From Cylindrotheca closterium (Eukaryota > Bacillariophyta > Bacillariophyceae > Bacillariales > Bacillariaceae): a DNA stretch of 64,000 bases. The notes beneath the pieces were generated by a model. The model was not told the DNA's origin and made no database searches. It saw only the letters and a program-made list of their open reading frames with translations. Location of the stretch: contig CAKOGP040001714.1 in assembly GCA_933822405.4 (NCBI GenBank), positions 62,001 through 126,000 of the forward strand, read 5' to 3'. The number at the start of each line of letters is the position of its first letter. The stretch's first letter is position 1. Below, piece by piece: positions 22,094 to 30,983 of this stretch. The translations under genes were made by a program, and so were the position numbers.

Positions 22094-23890
22094 TTATGAA
22101 CTGGGGCAGCTGAAAAGAGATTCTTGAATACCAAAGCATTCTCGTCCATCCACAACTCCTCCGAAGGATGCAAGGATACGGTGATCTTCATCGGGAACGG
22201 TGACAAAGTCAGTAGTCAAGGTCTGGGTGGGTGGAACAGACACTCCAACGACATCTACATTACCCAATTGTGGACCAGAGAGTCTTCCAAAGTTTCCAGG
22301 AGAAAGAAGGACAATGTTGGCAGTACTGAGCTGCAATTGTGTAGCGTCAGAGCCGGCCGCGATTCCCAACGTGTACTGGACTGGAGTTGGCTGGAAGAGA
22401 GACCCCAAAGAGTTTTGATCTTGGAACTCCACAACACGAGATGCTCCAAACTTGTCAGTCAAGAACAAACTTTCTCCAGCGCAGGTGCTGGCCATGGTCA
22501 CAACTTGGAGAGCATCACCGGGTCCATTGTTTGCGGCATCGAATTCAAAGATGCGAATGGTGATGGTAGATCCGAGTGCCAATCCGTTTGGACTGGTGAC
22601 ATTGAAGGAGGTTCCCACGCGGACTTGTCCTTCGAAGTAAGTGGTACCGCCACCGAGAACTTCGATCCAGCTTCGTGCTTGGACTTGAGTAGGTGCTGGT
22701 GGACCTCCATTGAGGTCATTGCACGAGAATCCCGCAGGCCAGTTGGCTTGGTCGACAACAGATCTGGTGCAGGTGCATGGGTCGGAACCAGGAGCACATC
22801 GTTCAAATGCAGAAGACGAGCATGCACCACCTTGGAAGAGGAACTCAAATCGCAAGGGAGCTGAATCACAAGTGTCCCATCCGCAAGACAATGTTGGACA
22901 AGTGGGGGCGATTTGGATATCGACCTCACAATCCACGGGTGGACAAGCAATGCATTCGGCGGAACAGAGCGAGTTTGGAGTTGTCACGTCAGCGCAAGTG
23001 GAAGGACAGCCTGGTGGTGGAATACATTGGGTAGGTTCGAGGGAAGGTGGGATGGATGGGAGTGGCGTGGGACTGCAGTCACCCAATTCAGGAGCATCCA
23101 CACACTGAGATGGACAGCACGTTGGGCAGCCATCTGCTGGGAAAGGAAGGGTATCACAGTCGGGTCGGTTGAAGTCGACACAGAGGGGCAAACGGTCAAA
23201 AGGATCGACTTCCCAGCATCTTTCAGGACATAGAACAGTAAGATCTCTGCAAGGAGTTGGCACTGGAGATGGAGCTGGCGAAGGCTCAATAGTTGGGACG
23301 GGTGTGGTTACACATCCTGCAATCACGTCCATCATACAGAGCTCGGGACAACATAGAGGACAGCTCTCCAACGGTGGGAATGGAAGCTCGTTACAGTCGG
23401 GACGCTGAATGTCGTTATCTGTGCATTGCAACGGACGCTGGGATTGATTTGCCGAGAAACACGATTCTGGGCAGTTGTCAATGACAAAGTTGCAGCTGGT
23501 AGGTGCTTCGGTCGAAGGTCCGGCAAATGGCGCCTGTGTTGGAGCCTTAGTTGGATTCTTTGTCGGGGCCTTTGTTGACCTTGCCGTTGGCGATGGCGTT
23601 GCTGGAACTGGTGCTGGGGTGACAAGGTTACCTTGAGTAGAAGGCTGTGGTGTAGGCGGTGGTGTTTGTGGTGGTGTTGGCGGAGGTGTTTGTGGTGGTG
23701 TTGGCGGTGGTGTTGGCGGTGGTGTTTCCATTCTCGGCTGCGTTGGTGCAGCTGTGAGACTGGAAACTGCCTGTTGGAGCATCAAATCATAATACTCCTT
23801 CTCTTCTTCTTTGGCAATACCACGGAGCTTTGGATGAACTCTTGCTGAACATCCAGCAAGTAGGGATAAGGCAATCAAGGAGAGCTTCAT
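22094..23890 (-). CDS. Secreted protein with two pleuralin-like Cys modules and C-terminal domain
   Basis: The 598-residue protein is read from the ATG at 23890, which gives a clean signal peptide (MKLSLIALSLLAGCSA) matching the start of its downstream neighbour. The longer frame to 24028 has no such signal. After a short acidic pro-region come Pro/Thr-rich linkers (about residues 50-130), two ten-Cys modules (about 133-193 and 214-272), a smaller Cys cluster (289-321) and a C-terminal domain (321-598). That domain is the same type as the two in the giant gene at the left. Secretion to the cell wall or extracellular matrix is inferred. An AT-rich TATAAAATATA stretch on the minus strand near 24034-24044 could be a core promoter element, but that is weak. 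It forms a tandem pair with the gene at 24396-25928, same orientation. Confidence 0.9.
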   Translation of the reverse strand: MKLSLIALSLLAGCSARVHPKLRGIAKEEEKEYYDLMLQQAVSSLTAAPTQPRMETPPPTPPPTPPQTPPPTPPQTPPPTPQPSTQGNLVTPAPVPATPSPTARSTKAPTKNPTKAPTQAPFAGPSTEAPTSCNFVIDNCPESCFSANQSQRPLQCTDNDIQRPDCNELPFPPLESCPLCCPELCMMDVIAGCVTTPVPTIEPSPAPSPVPTPCRDLTVLCPERCWEVDPFDRLPLCVDFNRPDCDTLPFPADGCPTCCPSQCVDAPELGDCSPTPLPSIPPSLEPTQCIPPPGCPSTCADVTTPNSLCSAECIACPPVDCEVDIQIAPTCPTLSCGWDTCDSAPLRFEFLFQGGACSSSAFERCAPGSDPCTCTRSVVDQANWPAGFSCNDLNGGPPAPTQVQARSWIEVLGGGTTYFEGQVRVGTSFNVTSPNGLALGSTITIRIFEFDAANNGPGDALQVVTMASTCAGESLFLTDKFGASRVVEFQDQNSLGSLFQPTPVQYTLGIAAGSDATQLQLSTANIVLLSPGNFGRLSGPQLGNVDVVGVSVPPTQTLTTDFVTVPDEDHRILASFGGVVDGRECFGIQESLFSCPSS

Positions 23891-24395
23891 GTTTGTTTCC
23901 AGGAGCAGTAGAAATGTTGTGATTTGCTTCCATGAACAGGCAATCGCAAAAAAATGCAACGAGTTTAAAATTGGCGATGAGTTTTGACGCGAAACTATGC
24001 GCACGCGTGTCAAGATCGCCAAATACACGTACTATATTTTATAAAAGTAGTCATATTCAAAAGGAACTATAAAAGACCCAATCTGGTTCATGTACAGTAA
24101 ATCTATGATCTACTATACCGTATCCTTGACTAAACTTGTTGGTTGCTTATTTGGTTGAACGTGCGTATGCGCGTACAGCAACACTTTCCCAAACTGTTGG
24201 GAGCCATCCAGCAATAGGATTAGTAATATTTTAAACATGTATTTAGTGGTTATGAATTATTGACTTGACTGGAGTTGTCCATGTTATGGACAAAGATCCA
24301 AAGAACACCAGTTTGGACCCATCATCTCTCCTATGACATATATATGAAAGTATGAGTTGCCTTGTAAAAAGGCATGCATGCATATAGACATGCAT

Positions 24396-25928
24396 TTATC
24401 CTCGTGGGCAATTGAATGTGACTGATTCCAGTGCGTTGCAGACACTGCCATCCAAGAGGCCCGCAAAAGATGCGATTGCAGTATGATTTTGATCTGGAAC
24501 GATGACGAAATCCTCGATGACCGACAGAGGAGGAGGGATCTTGGCACCATTCACTGGAAGCGTCTTGAATTGCGGACTCAAGAAGTCAGCCGAGAGCAGA
24601 ACGACGTTGGCTTGATTCAACTCTAGCTCAGTGTTACCCAGATTCATCTCGAGTGACAAGTTGAAAGCGAAAGCCTGCGTTTGGAAGAGAGAAACAAGTG
24701 CATTTGGAGACTCGAACTCAACCAATTGACTCGCTCCAAAGGTATCAGTGAGGAATAGTTGTTGCGAGCAGGAACTATCGAACAGGACCTGCTGCAGAAG
24801 GAGGCCAGGTCCATCGTTCGCAGCGTCGTACTCATAAATGAAGATGTCCATATTGGTTGTCACTTGCCCTGATTCCGTAGTGGCATCGAATGACTCTCCA
24901 AGTCGGACCACACCTTCAAAGTAGACGACAGTTGACCCAGCTGGACTTGCTCGAATCCATGACCTGGTGCCGATTGCGTTTGTGGCAGGTGGCCCACCAT
25001 TGAAGTCCTGGCATGTGTAACCAATGGGCCAGTCCAATTGATCAATTGGTTGCTTGTCACAAGTGCAGTAGTCGGGGTTGTCTCCTGCGCATCTCAAGAA
25101 TTCTGTTTGAAGACAGCCACCTCCATTGTATGCAAACTGCAATCGGGAAGGGGTTTCTTGGCAAACATCCCATTCGCAAGGGAGTTTAGGACAGTCGGGA
25201 ATGATATTGATGCTCACGTCGCATCCTGCGGGTGGGCAGGCAATACATTCCTCCGAACACTGGTCGGCTGGTGGATTTGCTTCACCGCAGATAGAAGGAC
25301 AGTTTGGAGGAGGAATGCATTGAGTTGGCGAGGCAGACACTGGAACGGTAGGTGAAGCTGTGCCTGTTGGCATGGCAGAAGGCGATTCCGAAGGAAAGGT
25401 TGTTGGAACAGGAGTAGGACTGCAGTCACCCAATTCTGGAGCGTCGTTACAAATTGCAGGACAGCAAGGGGGACAGCTGTCTGCTGGAAATGGAATAGTA
25501 TCACAGTCTGGTCTATTGAAGTCGATACACAATGGGTTGCGATCAAAAGGATCGACCTCCCAGCATCGCTCTGGACATTCCACCGTAAGAACTTTACACG
25601 GACTTGGCATGGAAGATGGAGCATCGGTTCCTTGACCTGAAAACGTTGGTGATGGAGTAACAGGAGTAGTTGGCGACGGAGTAACAGCAGCAGCGGGAGG
25701 TAGAGTTTCTTCCCCCAGCTGCGTAGGTCTATCTGTAGGGGCTGCAGTCAGCACTCGAGGAATGGTGGGAGCTGCAGTGCCAATTGGTGCCGCCGTCATA
25801 CTAGCAACGTTGTCCTGGAGAAGTCGATCATAAAACTGCTGATCCTCTTCCACAGATCCACCGCGGAGACTCCTTGGGTCTGCTGCTTGTGCAGTGATCA
25901 CTAATAGCCCAATCAAGAATAGTTTCAT
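24396..25928 (-). CDS. Secreted protein with one pleuralin-like Cys module and C-terminal domain
   Basis: The 510-residue protein begins MKLFLIGLLVITAQA, a clear signal peptide, followed by DPRSLRGG and an acidic stretch. An RxL motif at this place is a known processing signal in some diatom biosilica proteins; its use here is inference. A Thr/Pro-rich linker leads to one ten-Cys module (about residues 111-169), a second short Cys cluster, and the C-terminal domain from about residue 238, which includes PSRLQFAYNGGGC and the CTCDK cluster. It is a close tandem paralogue of the gene at 22094-23890 and lacks that gene's first module. Both share this architecture with the giant protein, so the three probably act in the same structure. 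No enzyme motif is visible. Confidence 0.9.
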   Translation of the reverse strand: MKLFLIGLLVITAQAADPRSLRGGSVEEDQQFYDRLLQDNVASMTAAPIGTAAPTIPRVLTAAPTDRPTQLGEETLPPAAAVTPSPTTPVTPSPTFSGQGTDAPSSMPSPCKVLTVECPERCWEVDPFDRNPLCIDFNRPDCDTIPFPADSCPPCCPAICNDAPELGDCSPTPVPTTFPSESPSAMPTGTASPTVPVSASPTQCIPPPNCPSICGEANPPADQCSEECIACPPAGCDVSINIIPDCPKLPCEWDVCQETPSRLQFAYNGGGCLQTEFLRCAGDNPDYCTCDKQPIDQLDWPIGYTCQDFNGGPPATNAIGTRSWIRASPAGSTVVYFEGVVRLGESFDATTESGQVTTNMDIFIYEYDAANDGPGLLLQQVLFDSSCSQQLFLTDTFGASQLVEFESPNALVSLFQTQAFAFNLSLEMNLGNTELELNQANVVLLSADFLSPQFKTLPVNGAKIPPPLSVIEDFVIVPDQNHTAIASFAGLLDGSVCNALESVTFNCPRG

Positions 25929-26780: not shown

Positions 26781-29700
26781 TTACTTCTTGGCTGTCTGCC
26801 TACTTCTTGACTTCCAAGCTCCTCTATTCTTCTTCTTGTTCCCTCCTTGCTTGTTGCTATTTTTACCTTGCTGGGTATTTCTTGGTTTGGGTTTGGTTGA
26901 TTTCTTGATTGCTACCGTCTGTTTCGGCTCGAAGACCCCAGTTTTGCGCCAGTTCTCCAAGCTCTTCGATGTTGGAGACAGTTCCCGAGCAAATTCATTA
27001 ACTCGATCACGAGATAATGATTCGAAAAACTCTTGGTACCTTGACTCAAACCAATCCAGGTTTGTTTGAACACACTCGTCTTTCTCGAACACGCCCAATG
27101 CGATCTGCTTCACTTCTTCTTCCATCTTCTGTCGAATCGACGGCTTTACTAGGAGAGCAGGTGTTGCTTCGTTCGTTTCGTTGCCAAAGAGTGCAATGAG
27201 ATTTAGGCCAAGTGCAGTGGGTACCATGTAGCGGCCAATCTGTCGTGGAAGAGGCTTGCTTCCAGGTCTAGGAGGCCGCGGAGCACGAAGGGGTACTCCA
27301 GCCTCGTCACAAAGAATGACATATCCTCGATCAATGATATTGTTGACATGAACTGCCATGATGGCATCAGTTCCAATCCTATTTTCGTCCATCAATCGAA
27401 TCAATTCATGCTCTTGTAAGAACCTCGGGGGCCGTGTCTCTCGTTCTCTCACTGCAGCCTTTGTGATACTTAGCTCTTGCCCAATGGATAGTTCTGACAT
27501 TTCCGACTGTTCACGACTTGCACCAATGTCACGGAGGACCCAACGGCAAACGTCAGCGAATCCTAATGAGTCCACAGTGACGACTTCTAATTCGAAATCA
27601 GCCCCCGATTCTTGATCTGCAGAGCCTTCACCAACCAACTTGAGCGACGCTACCGTTCGCAAATAGTGCAGATCGTTATGCAATGAGCCGAGGAATGTAC
27701 GCACGATGAATTCGTATATTCTCCACGGTGGACCATTGCCGATCTCTTGTCTTGAAGCCGCCTTGAGTGGAGTGATTGGTGGATGATCTCCAACATCTCG
27801 TCCACGAGTCGGGGGGCTTCCGTGGTTGCTGTACTTTGTTCGCAAGAGATAGGATACGCTTTTCCCCCATTCGCCATGCTTCGAATGCTGCCTCAAGGTA
27901 GTTCGGACATCAAAACCAGTAGGATCGTAGCGCGTGGTCTCAGTCCTCGGGTATGAGATGTAACCATCGCTATAGAGCTTCTCTGCAACACTCATGACTT
28001 TCTTTGGTGACATGCCAAGTGCTTTTGAACCAGCCTCGAGGAGAGCAACCGTGTTTAGGCCCACTGGTGCACTGACTTTGCAATTTTCCTCTCGGATGGA
28101 TTCAACCACAACATGTGCACCAGATTTTGAAGCAATCTTGACAAGCTTCTCTGCAGTCACTTTGTTAGGGGTCGAATTGTCTCCCATTTCAGCAGATCCA
28201 TTGGAACCCGTCCACTTCAGTGGACGATTGTTCTTTTTATCAGAGTCTGGACTTGCTTCAATTTGTAGTTCCCAGAACGTGGTTGGAGCAAACTTTTGGA
28301 TCTCATGAGCGCGGTCGACGCAAAATGACAAGGCCGGGGTTTGACATGGTCCATAGGAAACAAATTTGGTTGCCGGAGAGAATCGTTTTCGCGCTGCACC
28401 AACACACTTCCATGTTAGCAGTCGTGTCAAAGCCACACCAATACGAAGATCAAGTTCTTGTCGTGCATCCACAGATCTGGAGAGATCCGCATCAGGTTTC
28501 TGAAGAGTCTTGAAGGCATCCTGAAGAGCCTTTGCTGTGATAGCCGAGAACTTTGCTCGGTGAATGCGATCGGCAGCCCCTCCTTCTTTTGCTTCAATCG
28601 CACGTCTAGTCACAGCGATGACTTCATGAGCAATGTTCTCTCCTTCAGGATCACAGTCCAACCACAAAACTAAGTGGTCCGAGTCAGCAGCTAGAGCACG
28701 AAGATGGTCCATGACTCGAAGTTTAGAAGTTGTCGACTCCTCTTGTTTCACGATTGGCAAGCGGAAAAAGTCAGAAGGATCGCTTTGCCGCTGGTCCTTA
28801 CTGTCAAACCCAAGCGAGAAAAGATGTCCAACGACTGATGTAACAGTCACCAGACACTTTGTAGGAGACCCGGATTCATTCAGGGGCTCAAAGGCTTCTG
28901 ATACAAATTCATAAACAGGCAGCGCTCGTGATATCCCAAAACGTTTTCGGGGCCCTCTTTTTCCACTGAGCGCCTCTGCAATTGCGAGGGCAATTGACGG
29001 TTTTTCAGCAACCATGAGTATCCGTGGCAATGATGAGTGCGCTGTATTTCGGTAGTCTCGTTTTGTGGATCGAAGCAGCGGCAAAACTTCGTCAAATGGA
29101 AAATTACCGAGGTATTCAAATGGTAGTTTTTGGTTTCGGTTTCTGGAAAGTGTTGTATAGATCTTAGCATCGGGCTTGCTGCCGAATCCCTTTCCTTGAT
29201 TCATTTCCTCAAGGGCTTCCGCAAGCTGCCGGCTCGGCTTGGATTCGATGAGCTTGGGCATTGAAACTGAAGGAGCAACTGTATCGGTGTCACCTGAAGT
29301 ATCCATCTCGGTAGAAAAAGAGTTCTCTGCTTTCGGAATTGGTGATTGGTCTCCTACCAAGTCTACTTGCACACTGGGACTGTAGGCTTCATCATCGAAT
29401 GACCGATAGGACGTATCCCGCCCAGCACCGTAGGAACCTTCCACTGCGTGACGCCGAAAATCCTGCCCTGAAAACTCGTCATTGACTACATTTTCTTGCT
29501 CTTCCTTTTCGCTCTCCGTCAGTGTCCCTGCCGATATTTGTGCCTCCTCTTGCATGGCGTGTGCTTTGGAAGAATAAGCCATGCCGACAAGCCAAGCCGG
29601 CACTGGTTGGTCAGCTTCGTACAATAGTTCCAGCAATTCACCAGCAACTCTGAGGTTCTTATTGTTCAAAAATGTTACTGCCTCTCCTTTGGCACCCGCC

Positions 29701-30983
29701 CGGCCCGTTCTTCCGACACGATGCGTGTAGGAATCAACATTGCTGGGGGCATCCGCTTGAATAACCAAACCGATGTGTGAAACGTCCAATCCCCGTGCTG
29801 CCACGTCGGTTGCCACCAAGACTTGTGCCTTTTTATTCGAAAAGTCCCTCAAGGCTTGATTCCGATCGCTCTGCTCCTTGTCCCCATGAATGATCCGGCA
29901 CTTGATTCCACTGCTGGCCAATGCTTTGCCATACTGGTCAACGTCTTGTTTCATGTTGGCAAAGACAATAATACTGTTGTTCTTGTTTCCGTTGGATCGT
30001 TTCAAGAATTGTGTGACATGACGAGTGACTGCCTTTACCTTGCCCGCATCATTGCCCATCCATTCAAAGCGTTGCTTGATTCGAGCATGAGTAGAACCTA
30101 CCCTTCCCACACTCACAAAGTAATACTCCGGCCGCAAAAAGTCAGCAGCAATCCGTTGTACCGAAGTAGGGAAAGTAGCAGAACACAAAACACTTTGATG
30201 CTGCCTCTTAGTTTTGAGAAGCCTCGCAATTCGGGTCAGCTGTGGTTCAAAACCGAGATCCATCAGTCGATCGGCTTCATCAATTACCAAGAACTTTAGA
30301 TTTTGTAAGGACAAGTTTCGCTCATCGGTAAACTGCAATATTCGCCCCGGAGTACCAACAACAATACTCGCCGAAGCCAATTCTTGTCGTTGTTGCTTGG
30401 TATTTCCACCCCCCGTCGCAAGCGAAACTTTCAGGTGCGGATAATTTTTGGTCAGTGTCTTTAACACTCCAGCCGTCTGAATGGCAAGTTCTCTTGTGGG
30501 AGAAATCACCATACCCATGACTCGATTATTCTTTGTATTTGAAGACTCGAGTACAATACGTTCCACCATGGGCAGTGAAAACATGAGTGACTTTCCCGAT
30601 CCTGTCTGAGAGGATGCCATGACATCAAACTCTTTGCGCAGCAGTGGAATGGCATTTGCCTGAATGGTCGTTGGCCGTGTCCATCCTTCTTGTTTCAAGA
30701 CAGCGCTTAATTTTTCATTCATCGTTTCGTTGGACTGCACAAAGGAATTACCAGTCAATGGCAGAGTTCCGTGGGTGGATGGGGAGATTTCCACAGGTGG
30801 TACTTCTGGTGACGATACATCATTGGACGAAGCCGCCATGTAGTGCCGAGAAAATAGTCGGTGATGCTCTGATTTCTGAATATCATGAATACGAATACCA
30901 GACGTCATCCTTGTGGAAGTGAATGCAAAGGATAGACATCCTCTGGACTTTGTCAAGGCCAGGAGCAGTGGAAGATGAACCAT
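26781..30983 (-). CDS. DEAD-box RNA helicase fused to type IA DNA topoisomerase III (TOP3-beta-like)
   Basis: A single uninterrupted frame. Starting at ATG 30983 gives 1400 residues with a signal-like stretch and a LSFAF motif resembling a diatom plastid presequence. In-frame ATGs at 31028 and 31118 are alternatives (1445 residues from 31118, the numbering used here). Helicase: Q motif near 145-153, SSQTGSGKS 169-177, PTRELA 207-212, DEAD 280-283, SAT 313-315, ATDVAARGLD 436-445, HRVGRTGR 466-473. A linker of about 180 residues follows. Topoisomerase: Toprim AEKPS 704-708 and DCDPEGE 821-827, then the active-site YPRTET with Tyr 1056, and RIGTDA 1247-1252. The segment HVNNI and the region after PTALG resemble TOP3-beta more than TOP3-alpha. 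The usual C-terminal zinc fingers are absent; the tail is Lys/Arg-rich. All catalytic residues of both enzymes look intact. Relaxation or unwinding of RNA or DNA is the expected activity; compartment is uncertain. Confidence 0.92.
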   Translation of the reverse strand: MVHLPLLLALTKSRGCLSFAFTSTRMTSGIRIHDIQKSEHHRLFSRHYMAASSNDVSSPEVPPVEISPSTHGTLPLTGNSFVQSNETMNEKLSAVLKQEGWTRPTTIQANAIPLLRKEFDVMASSQTGSGKSLMFSLPMVERIVLESSNTKNNRVMGMVISPTRELAIQTAGVLKTLTKNYPHLKVSLATGGGNTKQQRQELASASIVVGTPGRILQFTDERNLSLQNLKFLVIDEADRLMDLGFEPQLTRIARLLKTKRQHQSVLCSATFPTSVQRIAADFLRPEYYFVSVGRVGSTHARIKQRFEWMGNDAGKVKAVTRHVTQFLKRSNGNKNNSIIVFANMKQDVDQYGKALASSGIKCRIIHGDKEQSDRNQALRDFSNKKAQVLVATDVAARGLDVSHIGLVIQADAPSNVDSYTHRVGRTGRAGAKGEAVTFLNNKNLRVAGELLELLYEADQPVPAWLVGMAYSSKAHAMQEEAQISAGTLTESEKEEQENVVNDEFSGQDFRRHAVEGSYGAGRDTSYRSFDDEAYSPSVQVDLVGDQSPIPKAENSFSTEMDTSGDTDTVAPSVSMPKLIESKPSRQLAEALEEMNQGKGFGSKPDAKIYTTLSRNRNQKLPFEYLGNFPFDEVLPLLRSTKRDYRNTAHSSLPRILMVAEKPSIALAIAEALSGKRGPRKRFGISRALPVYEFVSEAFEPLNESGSPTKCLVTVTSVVGHLFSLGFDSKDQRQSDPSDFFRLPIVKQEESTTSKLRVMDHLRALAADSDHLVLWLDCDPEGENIAHEVIAVTRRAIEAKEGGAADRIHRAKFSAITAKALQDAFKTLQKPDADLSRSVDARQELDLRIGVALTRLLTWKCVGAARKRFSPATKFVSYGPCQTPALSFCVDRAHEIQKFAPTTFWELQIEASPDSDKKNNRPLKWTGSNGSAEMGDNSTPNKVTAEKLVKIASKSGAHVVVESIREENCKVSAPVGLNTVALLEAGSKALGMSPKKVMSVAEKLYSDGYISYPRTETTRYDPTGFDVRTTLRQHSKHGEWGKSVSYLLRTKYSNHGSPPTRGRDVGDHPPITPLKAASRQEIGNGPPWRIYEFIVRTFLGSLHNDLHYLRTVASLKLVGEGSADQESGADFELEVVTVDSLGFADVCRWVLRDIGASREQSEMSELSIGQELSITKAAVRERETRPPRFLQEHELIRLMDENRIGTDAIMAVHVNNIIDRGYVILCDEAGVPLRAPRPPRPGSKPLPRQIGRYMVPTALGLNLIALFGNETNEATPALLVKPSIRQKMEEEVKQIALGVFEKDECVQTNLDWFESRYQEFFESLSRDRVNEFARELSPTSKSLENWRKTGVFEPKQTVAIKKSTKPKPRNTQQGKNSNKQGGNKKKNRGAWKSRSRQTAKK

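Follow-up and report, generated by a model that had tools for sequence, protein, structure and literature searches.

Does a single diatom gene join a DEAD-box RNA helicase to a TOP3-beta-like topoisomerase, and if so, how did the join arise and what would the joined enzyme do? The question is raised by a gene in a 64,000-nucleotide stretch of the Cylindrotheca closterium genome (contig CAKOGP040001714.1, positions 62,001 to 126,000), which we refer to as the window. The window is part of contig C179, in a genome of 47.6 Mb whose 66 light-harvesting matches would fit a photosynthetic diatom. The coding sequence lies at 26781-30983 on the minus strand, as do all features of the gene described below. 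Here, we describe the two halves of the encoded protein, the linker between them, their relatives, and a possible function.

One open frame encodes two enzymes

The frame is intronless and open from 31118 to 26781 (1445 codons plus a stop). The coding sequence proper, with 1400 amino acids plus a stop, begins at Met46 (position 30983); this start, proposed in an initial annotation made from the DNA letters, is also the start of the database model, P0002, on a contig of 456,497 bases. P0001 is the translation of the same gene from the upstream Met, and its residue numbers are used throughout. Pfam places four domains in P0001, all above cut-off: DEAD, or helicase lobe 1 (residues 150-322; 30153-30671; 156 bits), Helicase_C, or lobe 2 (369-475; 29694-30014; 103 bits), Toprim, with the catalytic E, K, and DxDxE (701-845; 28584-29018; 43 bits), and Topoisom_bac, the type IA core (875-1270; 27309-28496; 268 bits). 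The initial annotation had read a full set of DEAD-box motifs, a Toprim site (AEKPS, DCDPEGE), and an active-site YPRTET in one frame, and all are there. The active-site tyrosine (SYPRTET) is residue 1056 (codon 27951-27953), and 228 residues separate helicase motif VI from the Toprim motif.

The layout is shared by diatoms, red algae, and other eukaryotes

Full-length searches were made with the Cylindrotheca fusion (best 120 of 390 matches) and with that of the red alga Rhodosorus (best 120 of 790), both scoring only the ~8,000 candidates having most words in common with the query. Among the matches listed, the closest with an organism name is a Bacillariaceae record with 82% identity. Layouts were counted over 289 retrieved proteins, P0001 being excluded as the same gene as P0002. 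In 46 of these (P0002 included), motif VI, EKPS, and YPRTE occur in order, with 215–284 residues (median 245) between motif VI and EKPS. We refer to these as the long-linker set. A further 20 of the 289, the short-linker set, have the same order with 67–68 residues from motif VI to EKPS.

The long-linker set has among its members Seminavis, Pseudo-nitzschia (label Psemu1), Amphora, Entomoneis paludosa, and Thalassiosira, together with the red algae Rhodosorus marinus and Porphyridium purpureum (P0241, 1481 aa). Conservation in relatives, the check that the initial annotation had proposed, is thus seen in diatoms and two red algae. The idea that the fusion is limited to diatoms has to be given up, since the red algae carry it and a second type of fusion occurs in dinoflagellates and Hydra: the short-linker set includes Durusdinium, Symbiodinium, Effrenium, and Hydra vulgaris (P0249, LOC100215195, on a 52.8 Mb contig). 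By their source labels, transcriptome records span both halves in the long-linker set (P0013, with open reading frame type complete; P0040, labeled Amphiprora, which is Entomoneis paludosa in NCBI; and P0054) and in the short-linker set (P0060 and P0251). The 5′ end of P0054 is missing, because the record begins within the DEAD domain.

Could the join be an error of gene model or assembly, or could the two halves be expressed apart? The models of a handful of relatives are split or partial, which counts against a single chain and against a universal layout. P0122 (helicase) and P0044 (topoisomerase) are split models on contigs both 6600 long; P0127 and P0045 are likewise a split pair, on contigs both 648456 long; and the Cylindrotheca record P0042 is partial, beginning just upstream of a conserved part of the linker (module B, see below). 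P0122 stops within another conserved part (module A), in an apparently different frame, and for either pair a frameshift, an intron, or real fission may each be compatible with the split. Set against these cases are the single intronless frame on a 456 kb contig and a further 45 proteins in which the order is the same. These come from separate assemblies and transcriptomes, and two of them, Porphyridium P0241 and Thalassiosira profunda P0047, lie on contigs of 0.9 Mb and 2.0 Mb, respectively. An artefact at this locus is hardly credible, and for the family as a whole, it is very unlikely; the 45 other proteins make misassembly very unlikely and, with the domain E-values, exclude chance. The helicase-topoisomerase fusion is real and is one protein, with the helicase N-terminal to the TOP3-beta-like enzyme, as the initial annotation held.

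Eight fusion models of 646–706 residues (P0128, P0129, P0131-P0135, and P0137) start within the helicase or ahead of it. Of the eight, seven end together after LRIGVxLTR, where other diatoms perhaps have an intron border. At the other extreme, P0011 (1634-1726) and P0020 (1603-1696) have a terminal domain close to the NFACT-R profile, at 28.9 and 31.1 bits against a cut-off of 29.8. NFACT-R is a domain of ribosome quality control. In both proteins, it is preceded by a stretch resembling an organelle presequence, so the end may be a run-on neighboring gene or a further fusion.

The helicase half belongs with DDX3

Compared with PDB, the Cylindrotheca helicase half matches DDX3X with 264 bits, Vasa with 241, and DBP2 with 218, and the Rhodosorus half matches DDX3X with 289 bits and DBP2 with 240. 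For short-linker fusions, the order differs: DBP2 343 bits, DDX17 327, and DDX3X 260 for Durusdinium P0056, and 357, 351, and 267, respectively, for P0059. A helicase tree of 42 rows, from which eleven distant or long-branched rows were left out, divides the fusions in the same way. The long-linker set groups with plant RH37/11/52-type helicases, which we take to be DDX3 relatives, and with the genome's own DDX3 (support 100/98); the short-linker set groups with the genome's own DDX5/DBP2 gene and another of its DEAD-box genes (97/93). We therefore call the two sets DDX3-type and DDX5-type fusions. The 16 DDX3-type rows in the tree include the helicase-only fragments P0123 and P0154, taken as fusion pieces. 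A single clade of both fusion sets was rejected by the approximately unbiased (AU) test (p 0.0012), although this value and the one for the same clade on the topoisomerase tree are somewhat flattering, since quick trees were already in view when the groups were named.

The helicase motifs are well kept. Across 37 DDX3-type fusion rows, which hold this gene twice and were chosen by an N-terminal motif and RTGR, a choice that partly presupposes motif VI, the counts are as follows: motif I, PTREL, TPGR, SAT, and motif VI are found in 37 each, DEAD in 34, DESD in 3, the Q motif in 34, and a narrow motif V pattern in 29. With these motifs kept, a degenerate helicase is ruled out. Judged by tree and motifs, the helicase half is a member of the DDX3/Ded1 clade with its motifs complete. 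It shares with DDX3X/Ded1 helicases both the clade and a C-terminal tail that some unfused members also have, and differs in the added topoisomerase and an organelle-type N-terminus.

The topoisomerase half belongs to a TOP3B-like subfamily

The type IA catalytic residues (E, K, DxD, Y, and R) are present in the Cylindrotheca fusion. Among 64 fusion rows of the two types, with this gene entered twice, SYPRTET and EKPS are found in 64/64 each and LDCDxEGE in 61/64. A topoisomerase tree of 38 rows was rooted on the genome's own TOP3A, which is a long branch. One group consists of canonical TOP3B from animals, plants, a fungus, and this genome (C90). Both fusion sets form a separate group (100/98) with helicase-less records, namely Diplonema P0071, Amoebophrya P0073 and P0260, Cymbomonas P0265, P0252 and P0256 (Euglena by label only), P0068, P0069, and P0257. 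Two other arrangements were rejected: an exclusive clade of both fusion sets (AU p 7.7e-5) and a clade of DDX3-type fusions with canonical TOP3B (AU p 0.0023).

An insertion marks the same group (27231-27305 in this gene). The distance from GTDAS to the next conserved motif is 21–22 residues in 13 canonical rows, in the genome's own TOP3B and TOP3A, and in the canonical-type P0072, P0271, and P0281; it is 37–77 residues in 41 of 43 rows of the fusion-containing group, the other two (P0002, with GTDAI, and P0073, an odd gene model) giving no value. In P0002, the insertion is visible in the alignment. As a rare change, the insertion agrees with the tree. By both measures, the two kinds of fused topoisomerase and their unfused euglenozoan and Amoebophrya relatives are a subfamily apart from canonical TOP3B, for which we coin the name TOP3B-like subfamily.

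The C-terminus is also distinct. The initial annotation had noted that the zinc fingers usual at the end of TOP3 are lacking, and a Pfam search of the fusion protein gave no match to the TOP3B zinc domain, PF23546. A basic tail stands in their place (26784-26957); these final 58 residues include 19 K/R and 2 D/E and lack Cys. The hydrophobic TDRD3-binding residues (human 262-273; positions from an excerpt of PMC5296760) are not kept in the aligned fusions and unfused subfamily members (17 rows).

The fusion is an extra enzyme, since the genome also has a separate TOP3B (C90; up to 57% identity to fish TOP3B), TOP3A (C112; best PDB match TOP3A), and bacterial-type TopA (C435; L001:331-3534, minus strand; 542 bits against a cut-off of 456). 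The canonical TOP3B (L015) has a long RGG-rich stretch in the same frame before its Toprim domain. The TopA has a hydrophobic N-terminus followed by VFSFRF and is likely an organelle enzyme.

The linker consists of two modules and a spacer

The initial annotation described a linker of about 180 residues. The length holds, as the DDX3X match ends at 517, the TOP3B match begins at 699, and ~180 residues lie in between; the linker is not a blank one, as much of it is conserved in two modules that flank a variable spacer. Module A (residues 506-579; 29382-29603) has the consensus F..QDFR..A..GS.G..RDTSY..FD..AY. A profile built from fusions matches the unfused DDX3-type helicases P0156 (E 4.9e-7), P0165 (1.2e-6), and P0155 (0.0056), with no match among shuffled and reversed decoys. 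Module A thus looks like the helicase's own tail. The same three proteins may be sisters of the fused helicase half, and possible relatives of the pre-fusion helicase: a clade with them is allowed (p 0.56), and the DDX3 set without them is rejected (p 0.03).

Module B (627-700; 29019-29240) is a small helical module adjoining Toprim, with the consensus PS..L ... FEYLGxFPF (FEYLGMFPF in the Cylindrotheca fusion). A Pfam search with it gave no family. Its profile weakly matches the unfused P0252 (5.8e-6) and P0256 (0.006), with 0.15 for the best decoy; because it is weakly found in these unfused proteins, there are hints that module B was part of the topoisomerase before the fusion. The spacer (580-626; 29241-29381) is probably disordered.

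An AlphaFold2 model of residues 125-1324 (55 rows) has a mean predicted local distance difference test score (pLDDT) of 83.8 and a predicted template modeling score of 0.73. Both enzymes fold and module B is helical; modeled alone, it forms four helices (mean pLDDT 81). Scores fall below 50 in the spacer (586-619) and within module A (536-567), so the conserved module A tail need not be folded. With Foldseek, the whole model matches human TOP3B (E 3e-50) and DDX3.

The join probably arose at least twice

The DDX5-type fusions resemble the DDX3-type in having an N-terminal DEAD-box helicase and a topoisomerase of the same TOP3B-like subfamily. They differ in the line of the helicase (DDX5/DBP2), in the 67–68 residues from motif VI to Toprim (20/20), and in having no plastid-type N-terminus (12/12 tested). 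They are best read as a separate fusion event, and the constant distance in all 20 suggests a fixed geometry. The simplest reading of the two trees is that DEAD-box/TOP3B-like joins arose at least twice, once in a diatom/red-algal line and once in a line including dinoflagellates and Hydra. Strictly, a single old fusion, with later losses and an exchange of the helicase, is also conceivable.

One quick tree left out P0062, P0067, P0254, P0259, and P0268, in which a required motif is absent; the other left out P0009, P0156, and P0165 because a pattern was too narrow, and P0156 and P0165 were restored in the sister test. P0258, initially counted as unfused, carries a helicase motif and is not in the topoisomerase tree. 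The Hydra protein, from an animal record, nests with unnamed environmental proteins beside the dinoflagellates, and both an ancient and an acquired origin are possible.

The N-terminus points to an organelle

Diatom plastid proteins carry a signal motif, ASAFAP. As a crude stand-in for it, we used a rule that requires a hydrophobic core followed by [ASGV]F. From Met46, the Cylindrotheca protein passes, with a predicted presequence at 30930-30983 (a hydrophobic core, then the plastid-type motif S-FAF), in keeping with the plastid-like N-terminus of the initial annotation. The rule is met by 15 of 34 DDX3-type N-termini, which are related rows and thus not independent trials; in 500 shuffles, the mean number passing was 2.9 and the maximum 8. 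The 34 are what is left of 37 rows without P0010, P0023, and P0024 (N-terminus < 30 residues), and hold this gene twice, as P0001, which fails from the upstream Met, and P0002, which passes.

Taken together, these N-termini suggest that the fusion protein likely works in the chloroplast. Several points weigh against this. Only 15 of the 34 pass, P0002-P0004 among them being near-copies, and P0016, P0027, P0032, and P0047, which lack a strong hydrophobic core, may be mitochondrial or wrongly started. In addition, plastid relaxation need not rely on the fusion, because the same genome has a TopA with an organelle-like N-terminus. The enzyme could instead serve mitochondria, or both organelles; many N-termini have plentiful R/K, little D/E, and no clear signal peptide, and that of Porphyridium also lacks the plastid motif. 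We consider a mitochondrial role unlikely, given the hydrophobic core and [ASGV]F in the Cylindrotheca N-terminus and 14 others, and the rarity with which other protein sets pass: 0/12 DDX5-type fusions, 4/40 canonical TOP3B, and 1/84 rows P0157-P0240 (mostly plant DDX3-type helicases).

A possible function, and how it compares with known systems

From red algae to diatoms, the fusions keep two complete catalytic motif sets on one chain. That the two activities are coupled, and that R-loops or structured RNA are the substrate, we infer from sequence; the initial annotation had likewise put RNA action and an organellar home as possibilities. In the mechanism we propose, the protein would be imported into the plastid, where the DEAD-box half would bind RNA and use ATP to melt short RNA or RNA:DNA duplexes. 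The freed strand, tethered nearby, would enter the topoisomerase half, which would cut, pass, and reseal it, so that R-loops and tangled RNA are cleared. The spacer would be a tether rather than a rigid latch; its predicted disorder leads us to expect local loading of the substrate by the helicase and no directional supercoiling. We regard this picture of a plastid-imported, coupled DDX3-type helicase/TOP3-beta-like machine as standing about evenly between right and wrong.

What is known of the separate enzymes bears on both sides. By its title, PDB entry 7liu is a structure of DDX3X with a remodeled RNA:DNA hybrid. According to excerpts of PMC9363430, human TOP3B cleaved RNA and TOP3A gave no detectable RNA cleavage, which makes RNA activity of a TOP3B-like enzyme plausible. 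TOP3B in animals is linked to DDX5/p68, a separate protein, and the fusions support such a partnership between helicase and TOP3B; the covalent join would replace the scaffold or contact used in animals. Human TOP3B, which works with TDRD3 and DDX5/p68, is the closest solved topoisomerase, with the same catalytic residues and the same pairing with a DEAD-box protein. The fusion differs in that its partner is covalent, the zinc domain is absent, the TDRD3-contact residues are not kept, and the topoisomerase has the subfamily insertion and falls in a separate clade. Other observations weigh against the picture as a whole. According to PMC6251927, RNase treatment removed most of the fly p68 peptides, and a fly Top3-beta/p68 double mutant was, per its authors, unlike the prediction from coupling; the C-terminal domains that stimulate human TOP3B, as described in PMC9363430, are missing here; and the placement of the two halves is not firmly given by the model, because the AlphaFold2 output comes without inter-domain error.

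Two other functions have to be weighed. The protein may be chiefly an RNA topoisomerase for the folding of organellar rRNA or mRNA, in which the helicase opens structure and the topoisomerase undoes RNA knots and links, rather than an R-loop enzyme. Its helicase half comes from the DDX3/Ded1 line of known RNA helicases, the basic tail would suit RNA, and the RNA cleavage by human TOP3B, with none detectable for TOP3A in the same excerpts (PMC9363430), points the same way. Nevertheless, the sequence evidence fits RNA and RNA:DNA hybrid alike, and the C-terminal parts of the TOP3B-like subfamily differ from those of TOP3B; we think a role chiefly on RNA doubtful. Far less credible is a eukaryotic counterpart of reverse gyrase that introduces supercoils with ATP. 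Reverse gyrase, from archaea and thermophilic bacteria, has the same order of parts, a superfamily 2 helicase N-terminal to a type IA core, and its structure 1gku aligns along the whole model in Foldseek (E 2.8e-35). However, with the two halves placed as in the model, a tentative arrangement, the root-mean-square deviation of 28 means that they are not superposable together. The NCBIfam rgy profile (TIGR01054) scores 90.9 bits against a cut-off of 471.7, and does so over profile positions 699-1110, the topoisomerase half only. The helicase half is DDX3/Ded1-type, the topoisomerase is TOP3B-like, and a long linker with a low-confidence spacer takes the place of a compact contact. With no above-threshold match to the profile over both halves, and with a DDX3 helicase, identity with reverse gyrase is rejected, in agreement with the distinction drawn by the initial annotation, and ATP-driven supercoiling is highly improbable.

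Other genes in the window

At 22094-25928 on the minus strand, the window holds two adjacent Cys-rich, secreted-looking proteins with T/P-rich repeats. Both match DUF7467 and are probably tandem duplicates.

Meaning of the fusion

As a kind, helicase-type IA fusions are familiar from reverse gyrase. The DEAD-box/TOP3 fusion, which seems to have evolved twice, is apparently new. Our literature search found no paper describing this layout, which is already in public protein sets, where some sources call it DNA topoisomerase or RNA helicase. As a tentative synthesis, to which we give somewhat less credence than to the proposed mechanism, a further eukaryotic TOP3 subfamily beside TOP3A and TOP3B captured DEAD-box helicases at least twice, and the red-algal/diatom version may be a plastid single-chain RNA/R-loop counterpart of reverse gyrase. 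The link between helicase and TOP3B has so far been argued from interaction and genetic work in animals. The joining of two different DEAD-box helicases to one topoisomerase subfamily is strong natural evidence for a shared job. With both activities on a single polypeptide, points that are difficult to settle in animals, such as strand feeding and RNA versus hybrid substrates, are testable on one protein. If plastid import is true, red-lineage plastids would use a eukaryote-type topoisomerase, perhaps beside the bacterial-type TopA.

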